A stretch of DNA of 64,000 nt, from IMG/VR virus record IMGVR_UViG_3300047379_000570, positions 1 through 64,000 of that record, one strand, 5' to 3'. Made by a program: the position numbers and the translations under genes. Each line of letters opens with the position of its first letter. Position 1 is the first letter of the stretch. Positions 15,648-37,120 of the stretch are shown here, piece by piece. The notes under the pieces are model-generated. The model was not told the DNA's origin and did not search any database. It was given only the letters and a program-made list of their open reading frames with translations. Source of the DNA: a virus.

Positions 15648-16136
15648 ATGTTCTATTAACTGATATGTATTGAACATTAATTGATCTAAATCTCTATTAT
15701 TATCAATAGTAAAATCAGCCATCCATTGTTCTAAGCTCATTGAATCTTTTGATTCAGGCGGTAAATGATCTGATCTATCAACCCAAATTGCATAATCAAA
15801 AACATTAGTATTTTTCATAGCAAAGAATTCACGTTTGTTACGCAGTCCGCAATATATATCGTGTTCTTTGAATATTTCTCTACCTAACGTTGCTGCATCT
15901 CTTTCATTATAATCGCAAATAGCATCATACCATTCTTTACGATGATGATGTCTATCTGCATAACATTCTTCTTCATCTTTGTATTTGTATTTGTCTTTCA
16001 GCATATCAAAGATAAAAAGTTTTGAACAAAATCGACTACTGCTCTCAAAACTGTAACCGTAATTCTTTTCTAGTATTTCACAGACTGTGTCTTTGCCATG
16101 CCTGCCATGACCAATAACTAATAATTTAGGTAACAT
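15630..16136 (-). CDS. Deoxynucleoside monophosphate kinase-like protein (gp1-like)
   Basis: A 168-residue P-loop protein. The Walker A-like motif GHGRHGKDT (residues 9-17) is of the dNMP kinase/adenylate kinase type, and later segments (AIWVDRSDHLP and FTIDNNRDLDQL) fit the nucleotide-kinase fold. T4 gp1 (241 residues) phosphorylates dTMP, dGMP and hydroxymethyl-dCMP, and this protein is shorter. A consensus sigma70 promoter precedes it, consistent with early expression for nucleotide metabolism. The ATG at 16136 has GGAG upstream. Substrate cannot be inferred. A related kinase such as dephospho-CoA kinase is a less likely alternative. Confidence 0.7.
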   Translation of the reverse strand: MLPKLLVIGHGRHGKDTVCEILEKNYGYSFESSSRFCSKLFIFDMLKDKYKYKDEEECYADRHHHRKEWYDAICDYNERDAATLGREIFKEHDIYCGLRNKREFFAMKNTNVFDYAIWVDRSDHLPPESKDSMSLEQWMADFTIDNNRDLDQLMFNTYQLIEHLKVRS

Positions 16137-16161: not shown

Positions 16162-16190
16162 ATTATAACAAAAATTTAATATATTGTCAA
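16162..16190 (-). promoter_or_regulatory. Consensus sigma70 promoter for dNMP kinase
   Basis: Minus strand: TTGACA (16190-16185), exactly 17-bp spacer, TATAAT (16167-16162). All 12 bases match the consensus. The predicted leader is about 19 nt and includes the GGAG site. Confidence 0.9.
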
Positions 16191-19592: not shown

Positions 19593-20033
19593 ATGACAGA
19601 TATGATTACATGTAGTGGAGCATTATTTTACACATTAGATACTAATAGATTTCTTTTCCTGCATAGAGCTAACGGCAAACGTAATAACATGTGGGGACTA
19701 GTCGGAGGCACTAACGAAGCTGCTGAAACTCCGTTCGAAGGACTTAAACGAGAAATTGAAGAAGAAATAGGATTTTTGCCAGATATCAAAAAAACACTTC
19801 CTTTAGAAAGTTTTTTAAGTGCAGATAGTAAATTTTATTTCCATACTTATCTTTGTGTAATACATTGTGAATTTATTCCTATCCTTAATAACGAACACGA
19901 CGGTTATGCTTGGTGTAGTTTTACTAAGTGGCCAAAACCGTTACATCATGGACTACGTAATACTTTACAAAGTAGAGTTAATTTAAATAAACTAGAAACT
20001 GTATTTCAAACTATAAATCTCCTTGACAAATAG
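19593..20033 (+). CDS. Nudix hydrolase
   Basis: A 146-residue Nudix protein. The Nudix box is visible as GGTNEAAE followed by seven residues and REIEEEIGF (about residues 42-65), with all key glutamates present. Nudix enzymes hydrolyse nucleoside diphosphates linked to another group, such as nucleotide sugars, (d)NTPs or ADP-ribose. It sits between the neck genes and the heptose genes; its final codons contain the -35 box of the hldE promoter. A house-cleaning role for nucleotide sugars or mRNA cap-like ends is possible. The substrate cannot be predicted from the sequence. Confidence 0.85.
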   Translation: MTDMITCSGALFYTLDTNRFLFLHRANGKRNNMWGLVGGTNEAAETPFEGLKREIEEEIGFLPDIKKTLPLESFLSADSKFYFHTYLCVIHCEFIPILNNEHDGYAWCSFTKWPKPLHHGLRNTLQSRVNLNKLETVFQTINLLDK

Positions 20034-20051
20034 CTTAAAAGAAAGTATAAT
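20023..20051 (+). promoter_or_regulatory. Consensus sigma70 promoter for the heptose operon
   Basis: TTGACA (20023-20028), 17-bp spacer, TATAAT (20046-20051): all 12 bases match. Six bases separate the -10 box from the hldE ATG, so the predicted +1 is the A of the ATG. The -35 box overlaps the stop codon region of the Nudix gene. Confidence 0.9.
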
Positions 20052-20057
20052 AAAGTT

Positions 20058-21200
20058 ATGAAAGTCTTAGTTCTTGGTGACATAATCATCGACAAATATA
20101 TTTACGGTACTAGTTCACGTATTAGTCCTGAGGCTCCTGTTCCTGTTGTAACATATAAACGTGAAGTTGAAACACTTGGCGGTGCAGGACTTGTATATGA
20201 AAATCTTAAAAGTTTAGGTGTTGATGTTGAGTTAGTTGAAACAAATCAGCCACACAGTATAAAAACACGCATTATATGTGACGGACATTATATCACACGA
20301 ATAGATGATGATAAAAATGCAAATGGTGACGAAGTATTGAGAGCTATCAAACGTCAACCTAATCTAGAACAATACGAATATGTTATTCTAAGTGATTACA
20401 ACAAAGGTACATTAGATGAGTCGATAGAGATTATTAAATATCTAAACACATTTGGCTGTAAGGTAATTGTAGATCCTAAAGAACATGCAACTCAATATAA
20501 AGACGCATGGTTAGTAAAACCTAATAACAGTGAATTTACTAAGTTTGGGTTTTGTCAGTGGCAAGGAAATATTATTACTACTAATGCTGGTGATAATGTA
20601 CTTGCTAGTATAGATGGTGTTGAGTATAATCTGCCTGTTGCACAAGTAGAAGTATCAGATGTTACTGGCGCAGGTGATTGTTTCTTAGCTGCATTTGTAT
20701 ACGGTTTAACTAAGAATTATGATTATACGCAATGTTTAGAACTTGCTATTAAAGGATCTAGACGTGCAGTACAGCACGTAGGTACACATATACTTACACA
20801 CAGTGATATTGAAGAACGTGTAATCTTTACAAACGGTGTGTTTGATATTATGCACACAGGACATTTTAATTTATTAAAAGAAGCACGTAGTTTAGGCGAC
20901 AAACTTGTAGTTGGGCTTAATTCAGATGCAAGCGTAAAGCGCCTAAAAGGCAACGCCCGTCCAATAAACAATATAGAAAAACGTGTTGAACAGATATCTA
21001 TACTACCTTGGGTAGATGAAGTTCACGTTTTTGAACAAGATACTCCTTATGAGTTAATTAAACATATACAGCCTAACTTAATTGTAAAAGGCGGAGATTA
21101 TACTGTTGAAACTGTTGTAGGACATGATTTAACTGATGTGCATATTATACCTACAGTAGACGGATACTCAACAACACAAATTATAGAGAATAGCAAATGA
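20058..21200 (+). CDS. hldE: HldE-like bifunctional heptose-7-P kinase / heptose-1-P adenylyltransferase
   Basis: A 380-residue two-domain enzyme of ADP-heptose synthesis. Residues 1 to about 250 are a PfkB/ribokinase-type domain: VLGDIIIDKYIYG at the start, the GGAG segment, and the catalytic GAGDCFLAAF. Residues from about 255 are a nucleotidyltransferase domain with FTNGVFDIMHTGH (HxGH), GLNSDASVKRLKG and IVKGGDY. In E. coli HldE (477 residues) the first domain phosphorylates D-glycero-D-manno-heptose-7-P at C1 and the second adds AMP. The kinase domain here is shortened. The gene has no ribosome binding site and starts right after a consensus promoter. Its last four bases overlap hldD (ATGA). 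Confidence 0.88.
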   Translation: MKVLVLGDIIIDKYIYGTSSRISPEAPVPVVTYKREVETLGGAGLVYENLKSLGVDVELVETNQPHSIKTRIICDGHYITRIDDDKNANGDEVLRAIKRQPNLEQYEYVILSDYNKGTLDESIEIIKYLNTFGCKVIVDPKEHATQYKDAWLVKPNNSEFTKFGFCQWQGNIITTNAGDNVLASIDGVEYNLPVAQVEVSDVTGAGDCFLAAFVYGLTKNYDYTQCLELAIKGSRRAVQHVGTHILTHSDIEERVIFTNGVFDIMHTGHFNLLKEARSLGDKLVVGLNSDASVKRLKGNARPINNIEKRVEQISILPWVDEVHVFEQDTPYELIKHIQPNLIVKGGDYTVETVVGHDLTDVHIIPTVDGYSTTQIIENSK

Positions 21201-22015
21201 GAATATTAATAACTGGATATAAAGGATTTATTGGAAGAAATCTAGCAATGTATTTGCAGCGTCAAGGACATGATGTAGAAGGATGGGAATGGCAGCCTGG
21301 TATCATTCCTAGTACAGAAGACTACGATTGGTGTATACATTTAGGTGCAATTAGTTCAACTACTTTTACTGATGTAAATCAAATACTAGAACAAAATTTT
21401 GAATTTAGTATTAGGCTTGCACAAGTGTGTGAAAACTTTGGTACTAATTTACAATATGCATCTAGTGCAAGTGTATACGGACCTACTACACATTTTACTG
21501 AAGATGGTCCTTTATTGCCGCAGTCGCCGTATGCATGGTCAAAATATTTGTTTGATAGATATATTACACAATACAAGGACGAATTCGGTATCTTAGTGCA
21601 AGGCTTCCGTTACTTTAATGTGTACGGAGAAGGCGAAGAACACAAAGGTGATCAAGCAAGTCCTTATACTAAATTTGCATATCAAGCTAAAGACAACGGT
21701 GTAATTAAATTATTTGAAGATAGTAATAACTATCTTAGAGATTTTGTATGTGTAGAAGACATATGTAAAGTACACGAACTAATGTTAAATGTAGATGCTA
21801 CAGACATTTACAATGTAGGCACAGGACGTCCAGTAAGTTTTGAAACAGTAGCACAAACTATTGTTAACAAACTTGGCGGACAAATTGAATATATCCCAAT
21901 GCCAGAAAATTTAAAGTCGCAATACCAAAGTTATACATGTGCTAATATAGATAAATTAAATTCTGTAATAGATATGAATTGGACAAATATAGAGGATTAT
22001 ATTAATGGAAAGTGA
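21197..22015 (+). CDS. hldD: HldD-like ADP-heptose 6-epimerase (NAD-dependent epimerase)
   Basis: A 272-residue short-chain dehydrogenase/epimerase. The NAD-binding motif GYKGFIGRN lies at residues 7-15, followed by the SSASVYG segment and the YAWSK catalytic Tyr/Lys pair near residue 112. The phrase FRYFNVYGEGEEHKGDQAS is very close to the diagnostic HldD stretch in E. coli HldD (310 residues). That enzyme converts ADP-D-glycero-D-manno-heptose to the L-glycero form used in LPS inner core. It overlaps hldE by 4 nt and the cupin gene by 11 nt, a tightly coupled operon. A general NDP-sugar epimerase is the fallback assignment. Confidence 0.85.
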   Translation: MRILITGYKGFIGRNLAMYLQRQGHDVEGWEWQPGIIPSTEDYDWCIHLGAISSTTFTDVNQILEQNFEFSIRLAQVCENFGTNLQYASSASVYGPTTHFTEDGPLLPQSPYAWSKYLFDRYITQYKDEFGILVQGFRYFNVYGEGEEHKGDQASPYTKFAYQAKDNGVIKLFEDSNNYLRDFVCVEDICKVHELMLNVDATDIYNVGTGRPVSFETVAQTIVNKLGGQIEYIPMPENLKSQYQSYTCANIDKLNSVIDMNWTNIEDYINGK

Positions 22016-22424
22016 AACTACTCGATTAAATGGCGTTGTAGAAAAAGGATGGGGTTACGAATTAATCTGGGCAACTAATGACAAATATTGTGGGAAACTT
22101 ATGGTTTTCCAAAAAGCGGGCGCTCGATTTAGTATGCATTTTCACCGAGAAAAAGATGAAACTTGGTTTGTAAACAATGGTAGATTTTTAGTAAAATGGA
22201 TTGATACTAAAACTGCTAAATGGGATGAAAGAGAGCTTAAAGCAGGCGATACATGGCATAATCCTCCATTACAGCCACACCAACTAATTGCTATTACAGC
22301 AGGAAGTAGTATTACAGAAGTAAGCACACCTGATAGTGTTGAAGATAACTATCGAGTTGCGCCAGGTGACAGTCAAAGAGAAAACAATGAGCCGATTCCA
22401 GAAGCCAGTACAGCAACAGAATAG
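22005..22424 (+). CDS. Cupin protein, mannose-6-phosphate isomerase type II-like
   Basis: A 139-residue single cupin. Motif 1 is present as ARFSMHFHREKDETW (metal ligands His, His, Glu) and the second motif supplies a histidine in LQPHQLIAI. The phrases GWGYELIW at the start and MHFHREKDETW resemble the C-terminal cupin domain of mannose-6-phosphate isomerase/guanylyltransferase. It probably isomerises or binds a sugar phosphate. In this operon it could supply the isomerase step (sedoheptulose-7-P to heptose-7-P), for which no GmhA gene is seen, but that is speculative. Overlap with both neighbours supports joint expression. Confidence 0.75.
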   Translation: MESETTRLNGVVEKGWGYELIWATNDKYCGKLMVFQKAGARFSMHFHREKDETWFVNNGRFLVKWIDTKTAKWDERELKAGDTWHNPPLQPHQLIAITAGSSITEVSTPDSVEDNYRVAPGDSQRENNEPIPEASTATE

Positions 22425-22983
22425 TTATACCAAATACGTTGTTGGTTTAGATCGCGACGGAGTAATCAATAAAGATCTTGGAACATATGTTACTAAATCT
22501 CAAGATTTTATTCCTATAGAAAAAAGTTTAGAAGCAATTGCATTAATACGATCTAAAGGTCATCAAATTGTAATTATTACAAATCAAGGCGGAATACAAA
22601 AGGGTGTACTTACAGAGACACAAGTAAATGAAGTCCACAAACACATGTTTGACCTTTTAGGAAAAGTAGGATGTCCAAGTATTGACGGATTGTATCATAG
22701 CTCTAGTAGTTTAAAACATGATTTTTTTGCTAAACCTAATATAGGAATGTTTGAACGTGCCCAAGATGAAATACCTAATGTTAATTTTTCTAAAGGCATA
22801 TACATTGGTGATAAACTTTCTGATCTAAAAGCAGCAGATAAAATAGGCGCAAAGCCTATACTAGTGCGTACTGGATACGGATTAGAAACTGAAAAACTGC
22901 TTAATACTCGTTTTACTTATAACAAACTTAAAAAGAAAACTCGAATATTTGATAGTCTTTGGGACGTTGCACAAGCCCTTTAG
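22387..22983 (+). CDS. GmhB-like HAD phosphatase (heptose bisphosphatase family)
   Basis: A 198-residue HAD enzyme using the ATG at 22387 (MSRFQKPVQQQ), which overlaps the cupin gene by 38 bases. Motif I is LDRDGVINKD with nucleophile Asp22, motif II is IITNQGG, and motifs III/IV are KPNIGMF and GDKLSDLKAADK. This is the GmhB/HisB-N arrangement; GmhB removes the C7 phosphate of heptose-1,7-bisphosphate between the two HldE steps. The cysteines that bind zinc in E. coli GmhB are missing (the loop reads YHSSSSLKHDFFAKP). Its stop overlaps, on the opposite strand, the stop of the giant fibre gene. Given hldE and hldD next to it, GmhB function is likely. Confidence 0.8.
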   Translation: MSRFQKPVQQQNSYTKYVVGLDRDGVINKDLGTYVTKSQDFIPIEKSLEAIALIRSKGHQIVIITNQGGIQKGVLTETQVNEVHKHMFDLLGKVGCPSIDGLYHSSSSLKHDFFAKPNIGMFERAQDEIPNVNFSKGIYIGDKLSDLKAADKIGAKPILVRTGYGLETEKLLNTRFTYNKLKKKTRIFDSLWDVAQAL

Positions 22984-25900
22984 GCTTGCGCTTCACCCCA
23001 TTTAAGAATCAAGTTAGCTTCAACATTTGTACCGCCCACTTTATACACATTAATAGCAAGTACGTCTGGACCATTTGGGAATGTTCCTCGTCCACCTAGC
23101 GTAGTGTTTGTAAGCTCTTTCAATTCACTAAAGTCAACAGTTGCACGTTCTCCTGGTGTTGCAATAAAGGAGAACACAGTTTCACCTGGTTGTGCATAGG
23201 GTGGTTGAACGAATGTAAATTCTACTGTACCACTACCTGCTGTTAGTGTTCCACTAAACGAATTGTTAAACTGTATTTCATAAAATTCAGTAGATCCATG
23301 TTGTTTAGGAGTTATACTGTTAACCTGTGTGTTAGCAGGGAAAGTTACTGTGCCGCCGTTACTTAGATTTGTACCTTGCTTAACTCCTGCACTATCAACT
23401 TCTGATTTACTAAGATATGCAAAGTTTCTGCCTACAAGTGATTGATTAAACGTAAATGTCATAGTCTGACCAGAGCCTACAGTGTTTTGAACATTTTGAG
23501 ACAGTCTAACAAAAACGTAATTGCTGTTGTTTTCATCTACAGAAGTAATAGTTGTACCGCTCCGTATGTTGCTGCCAGTAACTGTAGCACCAACTACAAT
23601 AGGACCATTTGATTCATATTGTGATTTGTTTAGATATAGATAGTTACCTCGTCTCCAAGTACTATAAAATGTATTTACAGTAAATGATAAACTACCAACT
23701 GCTGTAGCTGTTGCTGTAGTAGCAGCATCACCTGATGACCATACAACAGAACCACCAGCAGCAACTTGGGCAAAGCTAGGCTGACCACCTTGCGCAACAC
23801 CGCTCAATGTTGTCCAACCAACATCGTTTGGATTGATTGGATAGTTTTGCGGGTTAAGTACACCTTCAACAACAATACCGCCAGTTATTGGTGCATTACT
23901 ATTTCCAGTATCAACACCGTCTGATGTAACTTCAAGACCTTGTAGCAACAATTGTGCTCTGTTTAGTAGTTCTCTTTCACCTAAGTCTCCAATAATTGCG
24001 TTTGATACACTAGGTGCTAGTCTAATCATAAACGCTGTTTGTTTAGTAGTACTAACCTCAATTCCTGGTTCTGCATATGAGAAGATATATCCTCTATCTT
24101 CATCAAATCCGCCGTCTGTTAAGAACGCCGAACCCCAGTGACTAATTAAAGGAGTAATTGTATTACTAATTAATATTACGCCAGTTCTTGCCTCATGCGG
24201 GACAGCTCCGCCTGCGCTATAAGTACGTTCGGCGCCTGCTTGGAAGTTAGTTAATGTTGTTCCTCTTGTTAAACCAGTTAGATGATTTGAAGAACGTCCA
24301 CTAAACGTAATAATTTCATTATCAATATAAACAGTGCCGTATTCTGGGAAGAAACTTCCGTCCACTAGTTCTAAAGTAGTTGCACTTGCATCCAAATCTG
24401 CTGCTAGTTTACCCGGAGGTCCTTCGTTAGTAACTTCATAACGCACAGGCAAGTTACCTGAACGCATAAATGCTTCTGTGTTTACGTTTGAGTTACGCAT
24501 TCTGTGACAGAATATAAAGTTACCATCTTGTCCACGTAGCATAAAGTCAATAAAACCAGCACCATACCAACTGTATTGAATACCAATCATTTGCATTTTA
24601 GCAATGTCAATGTCATAACCACTTGGTCCGGTGCCATCCAATGTGTCTAGATTAAAGTCAGCTGACTTAACTTTCTTATCAATAACTAGATTCATTTTTG
24701 CACCAGTAGCAGGAGTTACACCTCTAAAGTCAGGCGTAACAGTACAAGATGTTTGGCTAGTAACATTTGTTACCACGTGTGTCATACCTTTGATAATAAC
24801 TCTATCACCTGCTGTTAACTGATCGCGGAATCTTGTGTTTGTTCCTGTTACTAGATTCCCGTCAACTTCAATTGCAATAGTTCCAGCTACCTGCTGAGTA
24901 CCAGTACGTTGATTAACACTAACGTTAGTACCGTCGAATTCCCAGAAAATACCGTTTTGATCGTCAAAGATGCCTGAACGTACAGTTGCGCCGTGCCATG
25001 CAACAACACTCATTTGTGCGCCAAAACCAATGTTGGCTTCTTGTTTAAATGCTCCAATAGTATCTTCAACTACGGCTGTATTTCTTCTTTTCTTAAGTTC
25101 TGCAAGAGTATCTGCAATTCTTGTAGATAACGATTCAGCTTGTGAAACACCGTCTAAATAATTTATAAGATCGTTAGTATCATCTACAGTGAAGCTTCCT
25201 GAGTTGTTAATATCGCCCCACGCATATCCATCTGGTGCAGTCTCGTTGATAAAGAAATCGTGTATGTCATTAGTGTTAGTTCCACCTGCTGCTTCATCAA
25301 ATGCAACAACTAGTGGTGACGTATTAGTCGGCGAGTTTAAAACAATTTCTGTAGTGTCGCCTAATCTGCGTTTTGATCTAACTGTAAATGAACGTTCACT
25401 TAATACTTCTTCAACTGTGTAATCAAATCCTGGAGGTACTTCTGGATTAACTCCTGAATTATATCCCGGTGTTTCTACACCTAACAATCTAATTATACCA
25501 CCTGCTTGTACGCCGTGATCGTTATCATCTGTTGTAATAGTAATTAACGAATTAAGTTCTGTTCCAGCTGCCGATATAGTTGAAAGATCGTAACTTGGAG
25601 CAAATAGCGCACCAGTTGTATACATAATACCCTTACCTGATTGGTAACGAATATATTTTTTACTTTGACGTATTGCTTGTGCGCCATGCTGTGGACCGCC
25701 TGTTCCTAACTGCACACCGCCATCAAATGGTCTGTGAACAAAGAAGCTGTCTGGCCTTGCATATATTACGCCATTGATCGGATCAGTAGCATCTGTTGTA
25801 ATTGTTCCTGCTGCTCTAGCAGTATATCTTAGTTTATCTATTGCCGGAATATTAGTAACAAGGAATGCTCCGTCTGCAAGATCATGATTGTTTGTTCCGT

Positions 25901-28900
25901 CATCTGTTGATGTTGCTGTAATAAACGTATCGCCAGGCACAAGTCCGTGTGCAGCAGGGAATGTAACTTCTAATGTTGCAATAGCACTAAACGTAATTGC
26001 TGTGTTTGCAGCCATTTGCCCTGTTGTTGCTTCTGTCATTGTAAATGTTGATATTAACGGAACTTGTGAGCCTGGATTTGCTGGCTGTTGTGTTGTTGTA
26101 AATGTTGTTAATGCATTATTAGATAGAGTATCAACACCTGTAACTGTGATAGTAATATCATTGGTGCCATTTACACCGTCCATATCACTACCATTAAGTA
26201 TTAATACATCACCTATTTCATATTGTGTTCCGCCGTCACCGTCTATTTCTGCGTAGCCGCCGTTTATTCGCTGAACACTAAATTCAGCGCCGGCGCCCGG
26301 TCTATTAACGTTGGTTGGCAATAAACCTAAATAAGTTTCTGTTCCACTTGTTGCTGTACCTGAACTACTAAATCCTGTAATTGCGCCAGTGCCGCTTACA
26401 CTTGTTACTGTAATAGTAATGTCATTTGCTGGCGTTTGACCTTGTAGATCTGTACCTAATATTTTAAGTTCTTGATCTACAAAGAAGTTAAGTCCGCCAG
26501 TGTTTAATGTAACTGCATAGTTGCTTGGTGTAAGAGCAATATCAAATAATGCTCCAGTACCTAAAATAACTGTGCCTGTTGCATCTGTTGTATCACCAGT
26601 ATTTGAACCAGTGCCTGTAACACTAGCAGCAGTAATATCGCCTGTTCCGCCAACATTGTCAATTGTAACTACAGCATCGGTGCCTCCACCAATTTCTGCC
26701 GCTGCAACTGTAAATTGGTCTCCAATACTATAACCAGTACCTGGAGTAGTAACAATTACACTGTAAGTTGTTCCTTGCATTCTAATATCAATTACTGCAT
26801 CTGCGCCACCCGAACCATTAGTGTATGTATAAGGTACAGAAGCAAACAACGCATCAACGTCTGGTGCAACACCGCTTTCAACTACTATAGTATCGATATT
26901 TCCTGTTTCACCGCCGGCTCCTGTAGTAATTCCCGTAACTTTTATAATTAAGTCGTTAGTACCGTCAACGCCGCCAGCAAATGTACTACCTAAAATTCTT
27001 AGTCTGTCGTTAACTACAAAGTTTTCTGAAATATTTGGCGGAGTACCTTCAACGCCAACTGAAGTATATGTGTTACCAGATAGTGTTACTGTAAATTCTG
27101 GCGGATTAATACCAACGCCGCCTACTAGAGTTGCATCTAATGCTGTATAGTTTGCTGTGCCTGCAACTGCTGTACCTGTAAGTGTTACTGTTGCAATACC
27201 GCCAGTTGCTGTAATACTATCAACTGTACCAAACATATCATTGGTGCCAGTTGCACCACCTAATTCAGTTCCGTCAATTTTAAATGCATCACCTACCTCA
27301 TAATTAAGACCTGCTAAATCAATTGCTGATAGAGAATAAGATCCGCCGGATCTTTGTATATCAAGCAACGCACCAGTACCAATAGGCTGAACTGTTGTTG
27401 GGGTTAATATTGGATATGTTTTTGTATTTGACACAAGTGGTGCAGTTAATGCACTACTTAATGAAACTGTACTTCCTACAACATTGTTAATAAATGTTGC
27501 TACACCATCGCCTCTATCTAATGCTAGGTTTGGAACAACACCGGTTGCATCAAACAATAGTATATCTGTATCTCCAATATTAGCATTGGATCCAATATTT
27601 AATGTTAAGTACTCGCCACCGCCTGCACTGTTATCAATAATATTAGTAACCTGTGAACCTACTGGAATAAGAGGACTTGTTAAAGGTGAACCAACTTCAG
27701 GTGAATTACCGTCAAACGGAATAGTATTTGCTCCGGTTTGGACTATTAGCTCAGACACCATTGCACCCGAAGAACCGTTACTTAATACATCAAATTCTGC
27801 GCCGTCAATTCCTGCTCCGGTATAAAAACCACCTTTTCTTAGTTGAGTATAACCGGCTGCTAATTGCTGACCGTCTGCTGTTCCTACTTTTGATTTAGCA
27901 TAGTACTGGAAACTTAAATTAGTTGGTACACTAATAATAACAAACGAACCTTCAGCTCGTGCAGCGCCTGCAACAGATGTTTCAAGAGCTTTAATTGTAA
28001 TAGGTGTACCTACGTCAAATCCGTGTGCTGATACTGTTGTAACTGTAATTAGCGAAGCACCAATACCGTCTGTTCCTGTACTTGCGTCAGTTACAACACT
28101 TAGAACACTTGTATCTGTTCCTGGAATTTCATATACACTTGGATATCCGCGCATCATAGAAATTGCAGACCATTTAGTAGGCTGTAAGCCGTATTCAAAG
28201 TCAGCATCAAGCATACTTAATGGAGGAGCAATACGCATACGTTCAATTGCATCTGTTCCAAAATCATATGGTCGTTGTGTTACTACACTTTTTCCATTTT
28301 CCATTTTTTCTACAAAAATTTGTAGATCGTCAGTTGTTGAATGTGTAGTTGTATTGTATTTTAAATTAATAGTAGTTACAGCATCAGTTGTTTGTAAATA
28401 CTTTGGAAAATCATCGTCGCTGCCATGATCTTTAATAACACATTCTGCACCGGCTTCGGGGTCACTAAAATTATAAATTATTTCATTTTTAGTTGTGTTA
28501 GTAACAAGCAATAATTCGTCCGAAGTATATCTACCTTGAATTTTAATATTACCTAAACCTGTTGTTTCTGCTGTAGGAAGGCTAGTAATTCCGTTAGTAA
28601 GAACATCAACAGTGTTTTGTGAAAGTGTTACAGCTCGCATACTTGCGCCAGCAATCACTGCTCCTGTTACTGCACTTGAAAATGTATGTAATGAAGTATC
28701 AGAACTTATACCTACATTCATTGTAATAGATGTTGCAGTGACGCCAGTAATAGTAATTGGTTTATTAAAATATGGATCACGCTGCAATTCATTAGGAACA
28801 CCTGCTCTGCGTGGATAAGGATGTAATGTAGCATTACCATCTAATGCACAAGTAAATGTTATTCCATCTGGTCTAATAATAATTTCATCATCAGCTTGAA

Positions 28901-30287: not shown

Positions 30288-30290
30288 GTT

Positions 30291-31211
30291 TTATAATCCA
30301 AATGCTACTGAAAATGCTACTGCTGTTTTATCTACATAACCTTTATTTGCTACACTTTTCTTTGTTGTTAAAACATTATTAACATCAGCTGATGTAAATG
30401 TAGCAGTTGAAGGTGTCGTTACGCCAATTGTTGTATTGTTTATAGTACTTTCTGTTATGTTACTAGTATTTATAGGAATTGATAACCCTGTACTATTAAT
30501 TTCTCCTACAAAAGAATTATTGTTTTTAATAACAATTTTATTTGCAGCGTCTAATTCTAAGTTTGTGTTTGATGTAATATTACTGACGCCAACACCGTTA
30601 TAGTTAACACCGTTGGTTGTTAAAAAACCTTCAACAAATATATCTTTGCTTACGCCTATGCCGCCAGCAACACGCAGGGCACCTGTATCTCCAGATGTAG
30701 CATTAGTTGGAGCTGTTAGTGCTAGTTCACCAAATTGTCCTGCAGCATCAGTAATTGTAATTATATTGTAAAGGCCTGTAGCTGCATCGCCGTAATATAA
30801 TGTGTCTGGAGCATCAGTTGAAACTGTAAACTGTAGTATACCACCAGTTTGTCCTTGGGCTGCTGCTTCGGTTGTAATTACACCATCATCATGAGTATGT
30901 TGTAATCCTGTATTATATAGTGTGCCTTGATCGTCACTAAAAATACTAAATGTATTTTCAGTTAAAGTTAAGTTAAAAGTATATCGTGTAACTCTATTAA
31001 GTGCTAAGGAAGGGTTTTGCTCAGGCTCATTATTAATTAAGTAATAACCTACTGCGTCAGTAAAGGAGTAGTCAGTAGCGCCACCGGCGCCGCCTCCTCC
31101 TGCACCTGCTGCTTGAATAGAAGTTGCAACAATATTACCTTGGTCATCGACGCTGAAGTTTGGACTTGAAAATCCAAACTGTGAATTAAAAGGTTTATTT
31201 ACTACAGGCAT
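30291..31211 (-). CDS. Tail fibre/structural protein (306 aa)
   Basis: A 306-residue protein beginning MPVVNKPFNSQFGF, with a Gly/Ala linker (GAGGGGAGGATD), beta-rich middle and a C-terminal repetitive beta segment (GDTGALRVAGGIGVSKDIFVEG is a common phage fibre repeat phrase). The end, VANKGYVDKTAVAFSVAFGL, is of the type that precedes fibre trimerisation regions. It is 3 nt upstream of the giant fibre gene, so the two are co-transcribed from the perfect TATAAATA promoter upstream. It may form a connector between baseplate and fibre. No specific T4 counterpart is recognised. Confidence 0.65.
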   Translation of the reverse strand: MPVVNKPFNSQFGFSSPNFSVDDQGNIVATSIQAAGAGGGGAGGATDYSFTDAVGYYLINNEPEQNPSLALNRVTRYTFNLTLTENTFSIFSDDQGTLYNTGLQHTHDDGVITTEAAAQGQTGGILQFTVSTDAPDTLYYGDAATGLYNIITITDAAGQFGELALTAPTNATSGDTGALRVAGGIGVSKDIFVEGFLTTNGVNYNGVGVSNITSNTNLELDAANKIVIKNNNSFVGEINSTGLSIPINTSNITESTINNTTIGVTTPSTATFTSADVNNVLTTKKSVANKGYVDKTAVAFSVAFGL

Positions 31212-31229
31212 CGAAGTCTCCGTTTAGTA

Positions 31230-31237
31230 TATTTATA
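31230..31237 (-). promoter_or_regulatory. Late promoter (perfect TATAAATA)
   Basis: TATAAATA on the minus strand, identical to the T4 late consensus, 18 nt before the ATG at 31211; the leader contains GGAG. Confidence 0.8.
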
Positions 31238-31243
31238 CAAATT

Positions 31244-31636
31244 TTAATCTGCAAGGGTTTGGAAGTACGTTGCCGTATACATTACCCTTGCACCCTCTTT
31301 GCCAGCTGCTGCCGGACTTACAATTAATTCAAATGAAGACTTATCAACATTTGCACTAAGAGTTAAAATATCAGTACTTAACCCAGCCCTGCCTGTAATT
31401 GTAATTGCTGCATCATCCGGACCAGCAATTGCAAGTACTTGAATTGTCTCTTTATCATTTCTTCCGTTGTCTGCAATGATTGTATAATTAGCACTCATAA
31501 TTTCACCAATGTGCCATTTATCTAATACAATATTGCTGTGAAGAGACTTCCAATGGTTTTTATAGGCAAATTGTGTGTTGTTTCTTAGTCTAAGTGTGTT
31601 GTGCGCACCCTTAATAAAAAAATCTCTAAATTCCAT
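31244..31636 (-). CDS. Small virion structural protein (130 aa)
   Basis: A 130-residue protein with MEFRDFFIKGAHNTLRLRNNT at the N-terminus, a beta-rich body and Ala/Gly-rich C-terminal third (VSPAAAGKEGARVMY). It lies at the start of the fibre transcription unit, downstream of a late promoter, with a late promoter for the next gene just after it. No family is recognised. A small fibre or baseplate adaptor is plausible from position and composition. Confidence 0.5.
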   Translation of the reverse strand: MEFRDFFIKGAHNTLRLRNNTQFAYKNHWKSLHSNIVLDKWHIGEIMSANYTIIADNGRNDKETIQVLAIAGPDDAAITITGRAGLSTDILTLSANVDKSSFELIVSPAAAGKEGARVMYTATYFQTLAD

Positions 31637-31665
31637 GCTATTTCCTAAAGTTCAGTTTCTAGTAT

Positions 31666-31673
31666 TATTTATC
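31666..31673 (-). promoter_or_regulatory. Late promoter (GATAAATA) for the 130-aa gene
   Basis: GATAAATA on the minus strand, 29 nt before the ATG at 31636. A weaker TATAAGTA on the plus strand (31682-31689) may serve the divergent accessory genes. Confidence 0.6.
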
Positions 31674-31708
31674 TACATAGCTATAAGTAAAACATAATAG
31701 GAGACTAC

Positions 31709-32434
31709 ATGTTTAATAAGAAGATAGTGCTTAAAGCTCTCACTCCTGATTTAAGTGTATCAATGAATGCACCCATAGTATATGGTGAGAAATTAGAAAG
31801 ACCTAGTTGGCTTAAATCTATTAAGAGCACTGTAACTCATTGGAATGAACGAATAGGTTTATATGATAAATCTGGAACTGTAGCTGTATGTCCTGGTATT
31901 AGAGAATACTTGTCAAAACCAATACACATCAACATGTGGGAAGAAGTTGACATACGAATTAACCCCGATGGAAGCTGGACAAATACTCCAAGTAATGCAG
32001 GAGGTGCTTGTCCAATAGATATTTCAGAACATCCAGAGGACCAATGGAGGGGAATGTATCCTGGAAAAAGAGTTGCTCTTAAATTGACTAGTCCATGGAA
32101 ATTTACGTGTAACCAAGACATTGGGTTTTTATTTACAGAATCGCACTATAGCACATCTTATTTTAGAGAAAGAGACATTTGGTTATCTCCAGGATATACG
32201 AACTTTAAATGGCAACATTCTACTAATGTTCATTTAAATTGTCCAGTTAAAGATGAACCTTATGTTATTACACTAAAACACGGAATGCCATTAATATCTT
32301 TATTTCCGTTAACGGAAAGAAAACTTGATTTACAAATTGAAAAAATAGATTTTAACACATGGGCAGAAATAGGCGAACATTTTCCTAAAATTAAATTTGG
32401 AAAATATTATAAACAGCCTGGATTTAAAAAATGA
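31709..32434 (+). CDS. Conserved hypothetical, paralogue A (DUF6065-like)
   Basis: A 241-residue protein of unknown function. Key phrases are RVALKLTSPWKFTCNQDIGFLF, FKWQHSTNVHLNCPV and KHGMPLISLFPLTERK. The pattern of a hydrophobic sheet core, then an 'H/KxGxPLxxxxPLxER' element, resembles the DUF6065 type seen in bacteria and viruses, but I cannot confirm this. The next gene encodes a shorter, divergent paralogue with the same order of elements. AGGAG precedes the ATG. It begins a four-gene plus-strand cassette that ends in two 2OG-Fe(II) oxygenases, so a role with those enzymes is possible. Confidence 0.5.
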   Translation: MFNKKIVLKALTPDLSVSMNAPIVYGEKLERPSWLKSIKSTVTHWNERIGLYDKSGTVAVCPGIREYLSKPIHINMWEEVDIRINPDGSWTNTPSNAGGACPIDISEHPEDQWRGMYPGKRVALKLTSPWKFTCNQDIGFLFTESHYSTSYFRERDIWLSPGYTNFKWQHSTNVHLNCPVKDEPYVITLKHGMPLISLFPLTERKLDLQIEKIDFNTWAEIGEHFPKIKFGKYYKQPGFKK

Positions 32435-33150
32435 AAACAGTATATTGGGCTCCGTGGGATAGAATAGATTTATTAGAACCTATGTATTTAGGATTTACCG
32501 AACCAGTAAATGTACTTGAAGATTTACAAAAAAGACAAAATAAAGAAAATAATCAAGATAACTTTTTAAATTGTCCTGCTTTTGTAAACAGTAGTAAAAA
32601 TCTTTTTATGCTAAACAGTCCTGTTAATATAGATGTTGACATTTTTCCTGAGCATCTAAGAAATAATCTTAGCGATAATATACCATTTAATGAAAGAAAT
32701 TTTATTTTGAAACAGCCGTCTTTATTAAATGCTTATACTGTAAGATCTGCAGGCGCATGGATCTTTTTTTGTGAAGAAGAATTAGAAATAGAATCCATGC
32801 ATCCGTATATGCACAAAACACCAGTTACTGATGCAGGATTTTATGTTCCCGGAAGATTTGATATCTCACAGTGGTTTAGGCCATTAGAATATGCATTTCA
32901 ACTGCACGAAGGTAACACAAATTTTAAAGTGGGTCAAGGTGATCCTTTAATGTATGTTAATTTTAAAACTAATGAGAAAGTAAAATTACAAAAGTTTTTT
33001 CTAACCGAAGAATTATTATCGTTGTCAATGAGTTGCGTAAGATTAAAAAATACTTGGAAGCAGAGAAATTTAAATAAATTATACGACATTTTTAAAGGTT
33101 CAAAAATAAAAAATCAATTAATAAAAAAAATCAAAGAAAATTTAATATAA
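32431..33150 (+). CDS. Conserved hypothetical, paralogue B (DUF6065-like)
   Basis: A 239-residue protein overlapping the previous gene by 4 bases (ATGA), so translationally coupled to it. It repeats the layout of its neighbour: GAWIFFCEEELEI (compare the neighbour's DIGFLFTESHY), then RPLEYAFQLHEGNTNFKV and QGDPLMYVNFKTNEKV. The last 40 residues are Lys-rich. The two proteins probably arose by tandem duplication and may form a heteromer. The stop is immediately followed by the ATG of the first oxygenase. The function is unknown. Confidence 0.5.
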   Translation: MKTVYWAPWDRIDLLEPMYLGFTEPVNVLEDLQKRQNKENNQDNFLNCPAFVNSSKNLFMLNSPVNIDVDIFPEHLRNNLSDNIPFNERNFILKQPSLLNAYTVRSAGAWIFFCEEELEIESMHPYMHKTPVTDAGFYVPGRFDISQWFRPLEYAFQLHEGNTNFKVGQGDPLMYVNFKTNEKVKLQKFFLTEELLSLSMSCVRLKNTWKQRNLNKLYDIFKGSKIKNQLIKKIKENLI

Positions 33151-33726
33151 ATGATACACAGTTTATTTCCAACTACCGTATACAATATACAGATTGCTAA
33201 TACAATGCGACTCGAGTTGTTAGACGCATGTAATAGCGTGTTGACAGATGTAGGTGAAGATCATTTACTAAATATAGAAGGTTGGAATAGTACATTACAC
33301 TCGGCACCTGATGAGTCAAATGTTATTAATAATATTCCTATAGTTATTGAAACATTTAAACTTATTAAAGAATCTATACAAGATTTTTTAAATCAAAGAA
33401 ACCAACCATATTTTGAAGAAGATATGCAACACCCGTTTGGGTTTTTTAGTGATATGAAAAACAATGGATATTTACGTAGACATGCACATTTGGATTGTAA
33501 ATTTAGTGGAATTATATATTTAGAAGTAGGCGATAATGTTCCTCCTTTAGTATTTCATGATCCTAGACCGTATACTAAATTTGAATCTAGTAAATATTGT
33601 ACTAATCCTGTTATTACTATTCCACCGCAGCAAGGAATGATGTTGATATGGGATCACTGGTTAGAACATGAGGTGTATACAAAAACAAATGACAACCCTC
33701 GTAAAAGTTTTACGTTTAATATTTAG
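33151..33726 (+). CDS. 2OG-Fe(II) oxygenase (first copy)
   Basis: A 191-residue putative 2-oxoglutarate-dependent dioxygenase of the type common in marine T4-like phages. Iron ligands are visible as HAH at residues 111-113 (RRHAHLDCKFSG) and His173 in WLEHEVY, with Arg184 placed to bind 2-oxoglutarate. The ATG directly follows the stop of the previous gene. Such enzymes hydroxylate proteins, nucleobases or small molecules; the substrate here is unknown. The proximity to a carbamoyltransferase makes creation of a hydroxyl acceptor conceivable, but this is inference. Confidence 0.8.
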   Translation: MIHSLFPTTVYNIQIANTMRLELLDACNSVLTDVGEDHLLNIEGWNSTLHSAPDESNVINNIPIVIETFKLIKESIQDFLNQRNQPYFEEDMQHPFGFFSDMKNNGYLRRHAHLDCKFSGIIYLEVGDNVPPLVFHDPRPYTKFESSKYCTNPVITIPPQQGMMLIWDHWLEHEVYTKTNDNPRKSFTFNI

Positions 33727-33734
33727 GAAACAAA

Positions 33735-34334
33735 ATGGATAAAAATTTTAGAGAATCTATCCAATGGCTTAGCGTTCCAATACATTTTTGGGAGTTTAGT
33801 TTTGAGGATACCGACGAGTACTCTGTAGAAGAATTACACAATGATGTAGAGCGTGTTATTAAAGAAGTAGGCGATGCTAGGAATAAAGAAACAAATGTAA
33901 AGGCTACTATAATGACCGATTGGCTTATGACCGATCACAAGCCTTTTAAGTATATTTGCGACCATGTTGAATCTTTAATACAACAATGGCACAAAGAAAA
34001 AAGTGACTTAGATTTAAAAACATTTATGACAACATGTTGGGGATCAATATATACTCGAGGAGACTACAGTGAACTACATGCACATGTGCCTGCTTTGTAT
34101 AGCTGGGTGTATTATGTAAAAGTAGACGACGATGCTGCTCCGCTTCATTTCCCACACGAACCCGGAATGTATTATAAGCCTAAATCTGGGGATGGAATAA
34201 TTTTTCCCGGTTGGTTATCACACCAAGTACAGCAACATCAAAGCGATAATGAAAGAATTATTGTTGTAGGAAACGTTGAAGGAACTGGTGCAATTAGTTA
34301 CCCTCAACGTTCATTTACAGATGTTAATTTGTAA
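33735..34334 (+). CDS. 2OG-Fe(II) oxygenase (second copy)
   Basis: A 199-residue second oxygenase, divergent from the first. Iron ligands appear as HAH at residues 115-117 (SELHAHVPALYS) and His163 (FPGWLSHQV), with Arg174 (NERIIVVGN) for 2-oxoglutarate. The HxH form and total length match phage enzymes of this family. It begins 8 nt after the first copy, and its 3' end overlaps the convergent carbamoyltransferase gene by 11 bases. Two different copies side by side suggest two substrates or a two-step oxidation. Confidence 0.8.
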   Translation: MDKNFRESIQWLSVPIHFWEFSFEDTDEYSVEELHNDVERVIKEVGDARNKETNVKATIMTDWLMTDHKPFKYICDHVESLIQQWHKEKSDLDLKTFMTTCWGSIYTRGDYSELHAHVPALYSWVYYVKVDDDAAPLHFPHEPGMYYKPKSGDGIIFPGWLSHQVQQHQSDNERIIVVGNVEGTGAISYPQRSFTDVNL

Positions 34335-36129
34335 CTGTAATTAGTTTTCCGTATTCAGGAAGATACAGATATTCAATATCACAACTTGCTAGTGTGCGTA
34401 TTGCATCATCAAGTGTTTCTACAAGAGGCTCACCACCTAAGTTAAAACTTGTATTAAAGATAATTGGACACCCTGTTGCATCCTTAAATGCTTTAATAAT
34501 ATCATAGTAATGTTGATTCTGTTCTCTAGTAACAGTTTGAATACGACACGTTCCGTCGACATGAATAATCGCTGGAATTTTTTCTTCAATGCCTGGCTGG
34601 CAATTTACAGCATACATCATACTAGGACTATCTTCCATGCCACGAAGATCAAACCATTCGTGTACATCATCTTGTAAAATAGTTCCTGCAAATGGGCGGA
34701 AGTATTCACGGCGTTTTACTTCGTTAACATGATCTTTTCCGTTAGGATCTGTCGGATCATATAAAATACTTCTATTACCTAAAGCACGTGGTCCTGCTTC
34801 AGAACGTCCTTGAAATAAGCTAACAATGTTTTTTGATGTAATTAAATTTACAATATCGTCATGAGTTGCATCACTAATTGTTGCATCATATTTTTGTGCT
34901 GCTGTTTCTATTTCTTCGTCAGTATAATTATATTCTAATCCTAAATACAGTCCGTCATCTTTATAATCAACTTCGGCATGATCGACGATATCTTTATATA
35001 CTAGCATTGCAGCACCCATCGACGTGCCTGCGTCATTTGAAACTGGCTCAACGTAAATGTTAATTCCTTCATCTTTTAACTGCTCTAAATACCAATAATT
35101 TGCCACACAATTTAAACCGTAGCCTCCACTGATTACAACATTATTATTGCCAGTCATTTCAACAGCTTTTCTAATTAGTCTTAAAACTTCAGCCTGTGAT
35201 TCTGTTTGTACAGCATAAGCTAAATCTCTTCTATTATCTAGTTTAGTTAAATCCTCAAAATTTACATCTGAATTTTCTGTAAATTCATATGCTTGATGAT
35301 TAATGTATGCGCCGTTTGGATACTGTGGAATAATAAAATTTCTATTAGATAAACTATGTTTTGTATTTCCAAACAATTTAGGAAATGCATCGTTTGGTTT
35401 ACCATATGGAAATAATCCCATTGTTTTTCCAGCTTCAATAAAATGCCAGCCACAAAAGTATGTTACAGCTTCATATGTTTTTACAATTCCAGCTGTGTCT
35501 GAAATTACACACTCAAACGTATGACCTTCTGGATCCATAAATGCATCGCCATTATAAGTATCCATTGTTGTTAACGATGCATCTTTACAAGCTACATGTT
35601 TATATAATGTATGAATTTGATTTGGATACTCGCAAGAATAAATTGATTCTGTTTCATAGCCAGGAGCAGGCGCAGCTGGGTTATTGTTGTGATCAGTCTT
35701 GTTAACTGGCATTACTGATCCTGCACCATCTACAATTACTGCAACAGCAGATTCAAATCCACTTCTATAAAATGCACATGCAGCATGTAATTTATGATGA
35801 ATTTTTCCTAGATTAACTACTTGCGGATGTTGATTAGGATCTTCTGTTCTTGAAATTAGTCCTGTCTTCCTAAAAAAAGAAGTGTAAATATCTTCGCCTG
35901 TAAAATCAGTTCTTTGGTTACCAATATCTTCTGTTGTATGGCAAAGTACAACATAGTCTATTTTATCTGTATAGTCTAAAATTTTCATCATAACAGTTGT
36001 AGGTGTGCCATCATACTTGCGTCTTGACAGTCTTTCTTCTTCAATGGCAAATACAACTTTGCCATTTTTTAAAAGACACACACTTGCATTGTGTCCTCGA
36101 GTAATACCTGCAATCCAAATATCCTTCAT
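34324..36129 (-). CDS. NodU/CmcH-family O-carbamoyltransferase
   Basis: A 601-residue, full-length carbamoyltransferase. The N-terminal kinase-like domain starts WIAGITRGHNASVCLLKNGK and has EEERLSRRKYD; the ASKHA core includes VISGGYGLNCVANYW (near residue 334). The C-terminal YrdC-like-associated domain has GRSEAGPRALGNRSIL and GCPIIFNTSFNLGGEPLVE. Family members use carbamoyl phosphate and ATP to carbamoylate hydroxyls on sugars and related molecules. The ATG overlaps the stop of the GT9 gene (TAATG), so it is translationally coupled to a glycosyltransferase. Phage members acting on hydroxymethyl-cytosine are an alternative role. Confidence 0.92.
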   Translation of the reverse strand: MKDIWIAGITRGHNASVCLLKNGKVVFAIEEERLSRRKYDGTPTTVMMKILDYTDKIDYVVLCHTTEDIGNQRTDFTGEDIYTSFFRKTGLISRTEDPNQHPQVVNLGKIHHKLHAACAFYRSGFESAVAVIVDGAGSVMPVNKTDHNNNPAAPAPGYETESIYSCEYPNQIHTLYKHVACKDASLTTMDTYNGDAFMDPEGHTFECVISDTAGIVKTYEAVTYFCGWHFIEAGKTMGLFPYGKPNDAFPKLFGNTKHSLSNRNFIIPQYPNGAYINHQAYEFTENSDVNFEDLTKLDNRRDLAYAVQTESQAEVLRLIRKAVEMTGNNNVVISGGYGLNCVANYWYLEQLKDEGINIYVEPVSNDAGTSMGAAMLVYKDIVDHAEVDYKDDGLYLGLEYNYTDEEIETAAQKYDATISDATHDDIVNLITSKNIVSLFQGRSEAGPRALGNRSILYDPTDPNGKDHVNEVKRREYFRPFAGTILQDDVHEWFDLRGMEDSPSMMYAVNCQPGIEEKIPAIIHVDGTCRIQTVTREQNQHYYDIIKAFKDATGCPIIFNTSFNLGGEPLVETLDDAIRTLASCDIEYLYLPEYGKLITVTN

Positions 36130-37055
36130 TATGTTTTGTCCTCAATATCTTTGATAATTTTTTTAATAATATCATTTAGTTCTTTTTCACTAAAATCCAT
36201 TGCTAAATCATTTTTTCTATTTGCTAAATCTGCGTCAACACCTTGTTCGCATAGTCTAATTGGAAAATATTCAATCTGTAAGTTTTCTTTTTGTAGGATT
36301 TGAAAATGGTCTTTATATGAAACATTTTCAGCAAATGTACTTCCTAGCACCACTGTTCCTGGCTTATTAAATGCTTTAGCCATATGTTGTCCAACACTAT
36401 CACATCCTACAAAGTAATCACAACTTTCAATAATAGCTGCCCATTGTCGAAGACTTGTTTGTACTTTAAATGTTGTATCATCTACTTCGTTATTTTCACC
36501 CATGAAAATTACATTATATTTTTCTTGTAACTTAGTTATAATAGTTTTATAGTCTTTTACACTAAATGATCGACTCATTGGATCAACCATTTCATTTACT
36601 TGCGGAGCCGGTGTGGCTGATCTTCCGAATGGTTGTATTACAATTGTTTTTTCTTTATTTTGCATTTTTTGTGAATTTACAATTGCGTCAAGTGCATTTA
36701 GTTCTTCTGTTTTATTAAGAACAATTTTAATATTTTCTAAATCGCTATGATCATCAGTTTCATTAATAATGTGATCAAACGCTTCTGTTAAATGTCTTGT
36801 TTGATTATAGTAACCGTGATCTTGATAAGGTTCAGGCTGTATTAAAATATTAGGCTGAATAATATCTTTAAATACGCCTTTATGTTCGGGGGTATAAGTT
36901 ATGTCTTGTAGTTCAGGAATACCTACAAAGAAATCTAATCCGCTTCCGGATAGTATATAAAAATTAGGTCCGTGCTTTTTATAGTATTTTAGTAGTGCTG
37001 GAATAGAGCATAGTACGCGACCGGCGCCGCCATTAATTCCAAAGACTTTTTTCAT
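36129..37055 (-). CDS. Glycosyltransferase family 9 (heptosyltransferase-like)
   Basis: A 308-residue GT-B protein of the GT9 type, which includes the LPS heptosyltransferases that use ADP-heptose. The N-terminus NGGAGRVLCSIPALLKYYK matches the acceptor-domain start, though the usual Gly-Asp pair is changed. The C-terminal donor site is seen in CDYFVGCDSVGQHMAKAF and KPGTVVLGST (residues about 213-240), close to the family signature. The length is a little under E. coli WaaC/WaaF (about 320-350). Its ribosome binding site lies inside a long hairpin. It is translationally coupled to the carbamoyltransferase. The ADP-heptose genes 14 kb away offer a matching donor. Confidence 0.78.
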   Translation of the reverse strand: MKKVFGINGGAGRVLCSIPALLKYYKKHGPNFYILSGSGLDFFVGIPELQDITYTPEHKGVFKDIIQPNILIQPEPYQDHGYYNQTRHLTEAFDHIINETDDHSDLENIKIVLNKTEELNALDAIVNSQKMQNKEKTIVIQPFGRSATPAPQVNEMVDPMSRSFSVKDYKTIITKLQEKYNVIFMGENNEVDDTTFKVQTSLRQWAAIIESCDYFVGCDSVGQHMAKAFNKPGTVVLGSTFAENVSYKDHFQILQKENLQIEYFPIRLCEQGVDADLANRKNDLAMDFSEKELNDIIKKIIKDIEDKT

Positions 37056-37061
37056 GAAAAT

Positions 37062-37120
37062 GCTTCCTATCTAACAGTCAATTACATAATTAATTATATG
37101 TTGTCTGTTAGCTAGGAAGC
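37062..37120 (-). promoter_or_regulatory. Long hairpin hiding the GT9 ribosome binding site
   Basis: A 16-bp inverted repeat with one mismatch (37062-37077 with 37105-37120) and further pairing inside the A/T-rich loop (ACATA/TATGT). On the minus-strand RNA the AGGA element that would serve the ATG at 37055 is in the stem. It may block translation, act as a processing or partial terminator site, or both. The T-run after the stem is only four bases. Confidence 0.7.

Follow-up and report, generated by a model that had tools for sequence, protein, structure and literature searches.

We describe here a phage-encoded set of genes that appears to make and transfer a heptose, found in 64,000 bases ("the window") of the 71,163-base linear IMG/VR virus record IMGVR_UViG_3300047379_000570, and we argue that a small cupin in this set probably replaces GmhA, the sedoheptulose 7-phosphate isomerase at the head of ADP-heptose synthesis. 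The genes lie in two loci: Nudix, HldE, HldD, cupin and GmhB-like genes at 19.6–23.0 kb, and a GT9-type glycosyltransferase with a carbamoyltransferase at 34.3–37.1 kb. An earlier note made from the letters alone had named these genes, and open reading frames together with Pfam and NCBIfam bear out their presence, positions and order. Our reading, to which we give a probability of about 0.6, is that an early-expressed ADP-heptose route of the phage's own feeds the glycosyltransferase and the carbamoyltransferase, most likely on a glycan of the host surface. Clusters resembling lipopolysaccharide (LPS) genes are known from cyanophages; the main result here is the probable substitution of the cupin for GmhA. 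The first locus comprises:

19593–20033 (+), Nudix hydrolase gene (Pfam NUDIX, 7.6e-14)
20023–20051 (+), perfect sigma-70-type promoter, TTGACA-17-TATAAT, whose -10 box lies 6 nt ahead of the hldE start codon
20058–21200 (+), HldE, a PfkB-type heptose 7-phosphate kinase fused to a heptose 1-phosphate adenylyltransferase (Pfam, NCBIfam)
21197–22015 (+), HldD-like ADP-heptose 6-epimerase, 272 amino acids (aa) (Pfam Epimerase, NCBIfam, PDB match)
22005–22424 (+), cupin, proposed sedoheptulose 7-phosphate isomerase (Pfam Cupin_2, substitution in archaeal operons)
22387 (first ATG)–22983 (+), HAD-IIIA phosphatase, GmhB-like (NCBIfam, HAD motifs)

A candidate cupin replacement for GmhA

The substrate of GmhA is a 2-ketose phosphate and its product an aldose phosphate of manno configuration, and cupins that carry out ketose-to-aldose conversions exist for other sugars. 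GmhA itself (TIGR00441, SIS fold), noted earlier as missing, was found in none of 58 phage records, the window's record included, although many of these, this one too, are fragments. The suggestion that the cupin stands in for it finds its support in archaeal operons. Kinase and cupin form a single open frame, followed by GmhB, in three Woesearchaeota loci (L189, L195 and L197); Pfam confirms both domains in the fused frames of L189 and L195, and the order in L195 is GT9, Nudix, kinase-cupin, GmhB. Clusters of this kind, with GT9 or a GT9-like gene, kinase, cupin and GmhB-type phosphatase together, occur in Woesearchaeota and Parcubacteria (L187, L195, L252, L255), and in L195, L252 and L255 a Nudix gene stands beside kinase and cupin as in the phage set. 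Unlike the phage, L187 and L195, the two clusters covered by that search, have no carbamoyltransferase match. The cupins of these clusters are 30–36% identical to the phage cupin and the archaeal GT9 is 16% identical to that of the phage.

Further evidence comes from 237 sampled genomes of the nanoarchaeal phylum to which L189 belongs, 47 of which have an adenylyltransferase of at least 141 bits. GmhA reaches at least 180 bits in 27 of the 47 (absent in 18, ambiguous in 2) and the cupin at least 90 bits in 16, and the two tend to exclude one another: 13 genomes have the cupin only, 26 GmhA only, 1 both and 5 neither, with 2 ambiguous (Fisher p 1.4e-6, rising to 2.2e-5 if the ambiguous pair is taken as GmhA-positive). 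A kinase match lies around the adenylyltransferase gene in 35 of the 47 loci, and there the exclusion holds as well (21 GmhA, 9 cupin, 0 both, 5 neither; p 2.8e-5). Cupin and GmhA often occupy the same slot: the order GT9-GmhA-HldD-kinase-GmhB-adenylyltransferase in L258 and L267 recurs in L260 and L266 with the cupin where GmhA was. On a tree of the kinases, whose bootstrap had not settled, the cupin label requires 9 changes, at least 4 of them forced by well-supported branches, and the swap between cupin and GmhA has therefore recurred.

When genome contigs were scanned more widely with an alignment of the phage cupins, 59 cupin loci were found in cellular collections; a match to the hld kinase or adenylyltransferase lies in the fetched DNA of 20. 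Twelve of these are from Woesearchaeota, a Parcubacterium, Acidobacteria, a Deltaproteobacterium and an unclassified bacterium, and in eight of the twelve genomes (L168, L187, L189, L192, L194–L197) no SIS_2 match over the cut-off was found.

The structure of the cupin allows the proposed reaction. The protein (Pfam Cupin_2, 1.3e-7) has a cupin fold with a His/His/Glu/His metal site, as in the cupin aldose-ketose isomerases; the putative ligands are H45, H47, E52 and H92, and the set is invariant between the phage and archaeal cupins, which are 30–41% identical. Its profile matches the D-lyxose isomerases 2y0o (4.8e-7) and 7nzo (3.3e-6) across most of the domain, at about 20% identity; these two work on free sugars. 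The modelled fold thus permits an isomerase, and the operon evidence points to one.

Several observations weigh against this reading and we set them out together. The three bit-score limits were placed at gaps in the scores after inspection, and the p values overstate independence because the genomes are drafts and related to one another; of the 45 unambiguous genomes, five hold neither enzyme and one holds both, and the cupin label is partly clustered on the kinase tree (11 of 500 shuffles were as low). Eight of the 20 hld-associated cupin loci look like phage contigs, and SIS_2 does score over the cut-off in four of the other twelve genomes (L159, L199–L201). No hld kinase or adenylyltransferase lies near the cupin in 39 of the 59 cellular loci, some of them on short contigs, an argument against one role shared by the entire cupin family, and the close relatives at 65–66% identity, L146 and L147, have no hld match in 20 kb. 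Quercetinase outscores the isomerases in the profile search (7.5e-11), over a shorter stretch, and Foldseek places quercetinase, oxalate decarboxylase and KdgF above the sugar isomerases on the cupin model. Finally, GmhA-like matches do occur in 33 of 121 genomes of the Prochlorococcus family, of which four score at least 180 bits though none passes the curated cut-off.

The alternative that these points favour is that the cupin is another sugar-tailoring enzyme, or an unrelated one, and that a host GmhA or other isomerase supplies heptose 7-phosphate: the reaction is not evident from the fold alone, most cellular relatives sit away from hld genes, and some genomes hold neither enzyme or both. 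It accounts poorly for the exclusion of GmhA, the often identical slot, the four or more switches and the fusions to the kinase, nor does a host supply fit well with the 88 of 121 Prochlorococcus-family genomes without a GmhA match, and we consider it improbable, at odds well short of even. From the genetic context, then, the cupin probably replaces GmhA as sedoheptulose 7-phosphate isomerase. We found no report of a cupin as a GmhA substitute, or of a non-orthologous GmhA, in the literature searched, with subscription papers and preprints outside the search. Such a substitution, if true, would close a gap that phages and some archaea show in their heptose pathways.

The close relatives mentioned above are L146:9932-10387, in a Rickettsiales metagenome-assembled genome (MAG), and L147:9998-10381, in Marinoscillum pacificum; a radical-SAM gene lies near the latter, and the gene layouts of the two are very alike despite their binning in different phyla.

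The synthesis genes

The remaining enzymes have homologues in the cellular ADP-heptose pathway, with HldE, GmhB and HldD in common; the phage differs from that pathway in having no detected GmhA, in the added cupin and Nudix genes, and in its compact enzymes. HldE, of 380 aa, has both expected domains (Pfam PfkB 2.3e-16 and CTP_transf_like 4e-19), and its translation carries the signature residues GAGD in the kinase as well as HTGH and STT. The kinase part, of about 245 residues, is without a segment present in archaeal kinases but retains those residues that do not vary across eight aligned rows. The HldD-like protein (Pfam Epimerase 7.2e-36) has HldD itself, 1eq2, as its top PDB match (7.6e-43), and S89, Y112, K116 and K150, which correspond to the catalytic Ser/Tyr/Lys and second Lys of Escherichia coli HldD, are invariant across nine aligned rows. 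The GmhB-like phosphatase carries the HAD phosphatase motifs of GmhB; the zinc-binding Cys loop of E. coli GmhB is not seen in it, and its score is under the equivalog cut-off. The first-ranked NCBIfam models are HldE (2.3e-83), HldD (8.4e-68) and heptose bisphosphate phosphatase (5.1e-37), all three scoring below their curated cut-offs. On these similarities the HldE/GmhB/HldD set would produce ADP-heptose. A Nudix match accompanies 77 of 80 HldE loci in IMG/VR.

The transferase pair

The second locus, flanked by two oxygenases, comprises:

33151–33726 (+), 2-oxoglutarate (2OG)-Fe(II) oxygenase (PF13759; Pfam), adjoining the locus
33735–34334 (+), 2OG-Fe(II) oxygenase (PF13759; Pfam), adjoining the locus
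34324–36129 (-), NodU/TobZ-type O-carbamoyltransferase of the GT9-linked clade (Pfam, tree)
36129–37055 (-), GT9-fold glycosyltransferase with Arg13 (borderline Pfam, structure model)
37062–37120 (-), strong RNA hairpin burying the GT9 ribosome-binding site (fold energy against shuffles)

The GT9 call needed a structure model, since the single sequence had no match of E 1 or below to any solved structure and the profile gave weak matches only, the best of them not a GT9 (E 0.044) and WaaF and WaaC at 0.36–1.5. By Pfam the protein reaches the family threshold and no further (22.0 bits against 22). The model (mean predicted local distance difference test, pLDDT, 87.5) has as its best solved matches the GT9 enzymes 3tov, WaaF, TibC and WaaC (Z 18.7–21.8), followed by three chains of the plant NADH dehydrogenase-like–photosystem I (NDH-PSI) supercomplex at Z about 18 and by other folds from Z 12.0. 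The fold assignment is thus firm on the model, and what had been a borderline GT9-like call is secured by it, with WaaC, WaaF and TibC sharing the fold at 11–14% identity. The phage D-S-x-G-Q-H motif aligns with the D..G...H motif of the archaeal GT9. The catalytic Asp of the N-terminal GxGD motif of GT9 heptosyltransferases, D13 of WaaC, is replaced in the phage proteins by R13, invariant in 28 of 28 phage rows and aligned to the Asp of the archaeal GT9. This substitution weighs against the proposed reading, and the phage GT9 may use another base or act differently; that it uses ADP-heptose is suggested by its linkage to the hld genes.

The carbamoyltransferase, described earlier as NodU-type and translationally coupled to the GT9 gene, has both domains of its family (Pfam, N-terminal 1.6e-24 and C-terminal 5e-59), matches solved O-carbamoyltransferases including TobZ, and has a start codon that overlaps the GT9 stop codon as TAATG. 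All 20 rows of carbamoyltransferases that stand beside a GT9 fall in a single clade (support 100/98), separate from 11 other phage carbamoyltransferases. The enzyme of the cyanophage S-SSM7 branches from within those of the window's relatives, suggesting that phage groups have exchanged such genes. Heptose as the acceptor would likewise follow from linkage.

More distant GT9-like proteins (24–30% identity) are present in Aeromonas phage HJ05 (L092:10001-10921) and Vibrio phage D505 (L093:8974-9708), and in D505 the gene adjoins a tail gene.

The two loci as one set

In the cyanophages P-SSM2 and S-CAM1 the genes for GT9, carbamoyltransferase, HldE adenylyltransferase, HldE kinase, a small HAD protein and the cupin are consecutive, with the epimerase next, and S-SSM7 keeps this order but has further genes in between. 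Searches of 50,697 phage records, with a close GT9 defined by at least 38% identity and at least 87% coverage and a close carbamoyltransferase by at least 44%, returned, among the matches listed, 23 records with the one and the same 23 with the other; an HldE match is listed for all 23 (partial in one short record). Many of the 23 are repeat records, which bear about eleven phage names. IMG/VR holds at least 80 HldE loci, of which 80 were fetched. Fifty of their contigs, some of them near-copies, are 12 kb long or longer; 28 of these carry the GT9 and all 28 also the close carbamoyltransferase. Where a contig runs on downstream of hldE for 12 kb or longer, the pair is present in 26 cases out of 28. 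The two contigs without it, L052 and L053, are alike and also lack the Nudix and gp13 neighbours. A locus search with the GT9 single protein reached three loci. Judged by the single cyanophage clusters and this co-occurrence, the two loci of the window are one set, as had been proposed.

The dependence runs one way, since this GT9 is missing from P-TIM68, S-T4, S-SM2 and other phages that do have hld matches. The converse, a pair independent of hld genes, had been named as evidence against a common function; it is seen only weakly, in the remote GT9-like genes of the Aeromonas and Vibrio phages, which lie in two stretches without annotated hld or carbamoyltransferase genes.

The same phage cassette is found on two contigs of one Neomarinimicrobiota MAG (L144, L145), probably phage contigs binned in, and a contig binned as Rhodobacteraceae (L182:3847-11710), probably also from a phage, has the cyanophage-type set and a second carbamoyltransferase.

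Promoters and timing

Position 20023, where the earlier note began its feature, is the first base of the perfect sigma-70-type promoter of hldE. Across 36 distinct upstream sequences, representing the window and 79 of the 80 hldE loci, the promoter is perfect (12 of 12 bases) in 27 and matches at least 11 bases in 29; 2,000 mononucleotide shuffles of the first 32 upstream sequences gave a maximum of 11 bases. A leaderless hldE mRNA is likely. Against a general rule, the promoter is imperfect in 9 of the 36 and missing in 4 (L045, L052/L053, L057, L080), in three of which the Nudix gene does not precede hldE. The motif ATAAATA, of late type, is rarer in the window than chance (17 against 31.6 expected), but 11 of the 17 sites fall in the 40 bases preceding a gene start, where 0.26 would be expected (an internal ATG was chosen as the start of two genes). 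It is found at no gene of the cassette and does occur at the neighbouring structural genes; TATAAATA alone was uninformative in the late-promoter test. The conserved sigma-70-type promoter suggests that the hld synthesis genes are transcribed early, by the host polymerase.

Upstream of the pair the signals differ. Upstream of the GT9 in the window the hairpin folds at -26.2 kcal/mol (z -7.0; none of 200 shuffles reaches this stability). Among 27 GT9 upstream regions, a fold energy of at most -19 kcal/mol is found in 11, ATAAATA in 8 and a sigma-70 site of 11 of 12 bases in only 3. Control of the pair is thus not uniform and, without a conserved sigma-70 site, the early timing would be limited to the synthesis genes, which detracts from an early role for the set as a whole. 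In the relatives L035 and L124 the ATAAATA motif lies in the 5' arm of the GT9 hairpin, a layout that resembles T4 late genes with hidden start sites.

Mechanism and target

In the proposed route, the cupin would convert sedoheptulose 7-phosphate of the host into D-glycero-D-manno-heptose 7-phosphate in place of GmhA, the kinase domain of HldE would phosphorylate it at C1, the GmhB-like phosphatase would remove the 7-phosphate, the adenylyltransferase domain of HldE would make ADP-heptose, and HldD would epimerise it. The GT9 would then transfer the heptose to an acceptor, to which the overlapping carbamoyltransferase would add a carbamoyl group. The reactions, the order of GT9 before carbamoyltransferase, the timing and the target are all predictions from sequence. 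We favour a host-directed product because the sigma-70-type promoter suggests early transcription; a host glycan in particular is favoured by this promoter and by a published opinion on pelagimyophages, which reads their LPS-related genes as modifying the host O-chain (PMC7029224). A fuller and more tentative statement, which we hold at slightly worse than even odds, is that a new, non-orthologous cupin isomerase has repeatedly displaced GmhA in archaea and was acquired by marine phages, giving ADP-heptose independent of the host and, with an Arg-type GT9 and the carbamoyltransferase, a carbamoyl-heptose glycan foreign to the host.

The heptose might instead be put on tail fibres or other virion proteins of the phage, in the manner of protein heptosyltransferases of the TibC type, possibly after hydroxylation by the 2OG-Fe(II) oxygenases that adjoin the pair. 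Both loci sit among tail-fibre-sized genes and beside gp13 in the window, and near tail or gp13 genes in the cyanophages, and TibC (Z 19.2) ranks with the nearest solved structures, so that virion proteins stay in consideration; the position of the remote GT9-like gene of Vibrio phage D505 next to a tail gene points the same way, as does the hairpin over the GT9 ribosome-binding site, as if translation were separately timed. Yet host-directed cargo, too, is commonly placed among tail genes, the model matches WaaC and WaaF no less well than TibC, and the hld genes have an early-type promoter; we regard a virion target as unlikely, though a serious competitor, and hold it a little more probable than a cupin unrelated to the isomerase step. 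DNA is the least likely target, and we give it little credence. Phage carbamoyltransferases modify 5-hydroxymethylcytosine (5hmC), and the one here might do so without any relation to heptose; that activity co-occurs with thymidylate-synthase-type genes (PMC8670742). PF00303 was found in none of ten phage records chosen from 51, the window's included and none of them complete, and the clade of the window's enzyme was found only beside GT9 in this analysis. The thymidylate synthase that lies beside a carbamoyltransferase in S-RIM44 is ThyX by its record note and therefore has no bearing on the 5hmC question.

That the genes are function-less stuffer DNA is left as a possibility for the cyanophage LPS clusters in PMC3037559, but the frames are intact, residues and promoter are conserved, and the set has been kept on many contigs and in two phage groups, which makes this scarcely credible. 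A pathway that has a candidate for its first enzyme, is preceded by an early-type promoter and has a pair of transferases dedicated to it offers in its place a testable function. Taken overall, the interpretation in the earlier note, of heptose made, transferred and carbamoylated by the phage, is partly supported.

Relation to known phage clusters

The LPS-like clusters of P-SSM2, S-SSM7 and S-CAM1 (T4-GC 302-308; PMC3037559) share with the window the GT9, the carbamoyltransferase, the HldE parts, a small HAD protein, the cupin and the epimerase. They differ in arrangement: the cyanophages have one cluster, interrupted in S-SSM7, with HldE as two genes, whereas the window has a split set and a fused HldE. 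The small HAD protein of the cyanophages, of 107–114 aa, is annotated as phosphoheptose isomerase, with these positions:

L002:17312-17653
L004:17055-17387
L003:17162-17482
L005:11193-11528

These proteins have no Pfam match and contain D-x-D-x-T and GKP...DDKG, which are HAD motifs. The annotation looks wrong by its sequence, the product being rather a small HAD protein, and would be corrected.

Pelagimyophages have LPS-related genes, rfaE (hldE) among them, near their tail-fibre genes; the accessible portion of that account names neither a replacement of GmhA nor a partnership of GT9 and carbamoyltransferase (PMC7029224). Marine Synechococcus LPS is without heptose and 3-deoxy-D-manno-octulosonic acid (KDO) (PMC4515613), and in cyanophages the sugar would therefore be one that the host surface does not itself carry. 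In the literature searched as above we found no paper on a Prochlorococcus phage with LPS and heptose.

Phage setting and further genes

The structural genes of the window, namely terminase, neck protein gp13 and major head protein, are of T4 type, and the closest relatives of the terminase are PA5oct-type phages (53% identity). A cyanophage identity was dropped for this reason; the source is a marine T4-like phage and not a typical cyanophage. Between the two loci are a gene of 2435 aa and others, and four further genes of the window, the 2435-aa one included, have no Pfam match. The two genes at 31709–33150 (241 and 239 aa), which precede the 2OG oxygenases, are without a Pfam match. A second perfect sigma-70-type promoter lies at 16162–16190 (-), upstream of a 168-aa gene at 15630–16136 (-).

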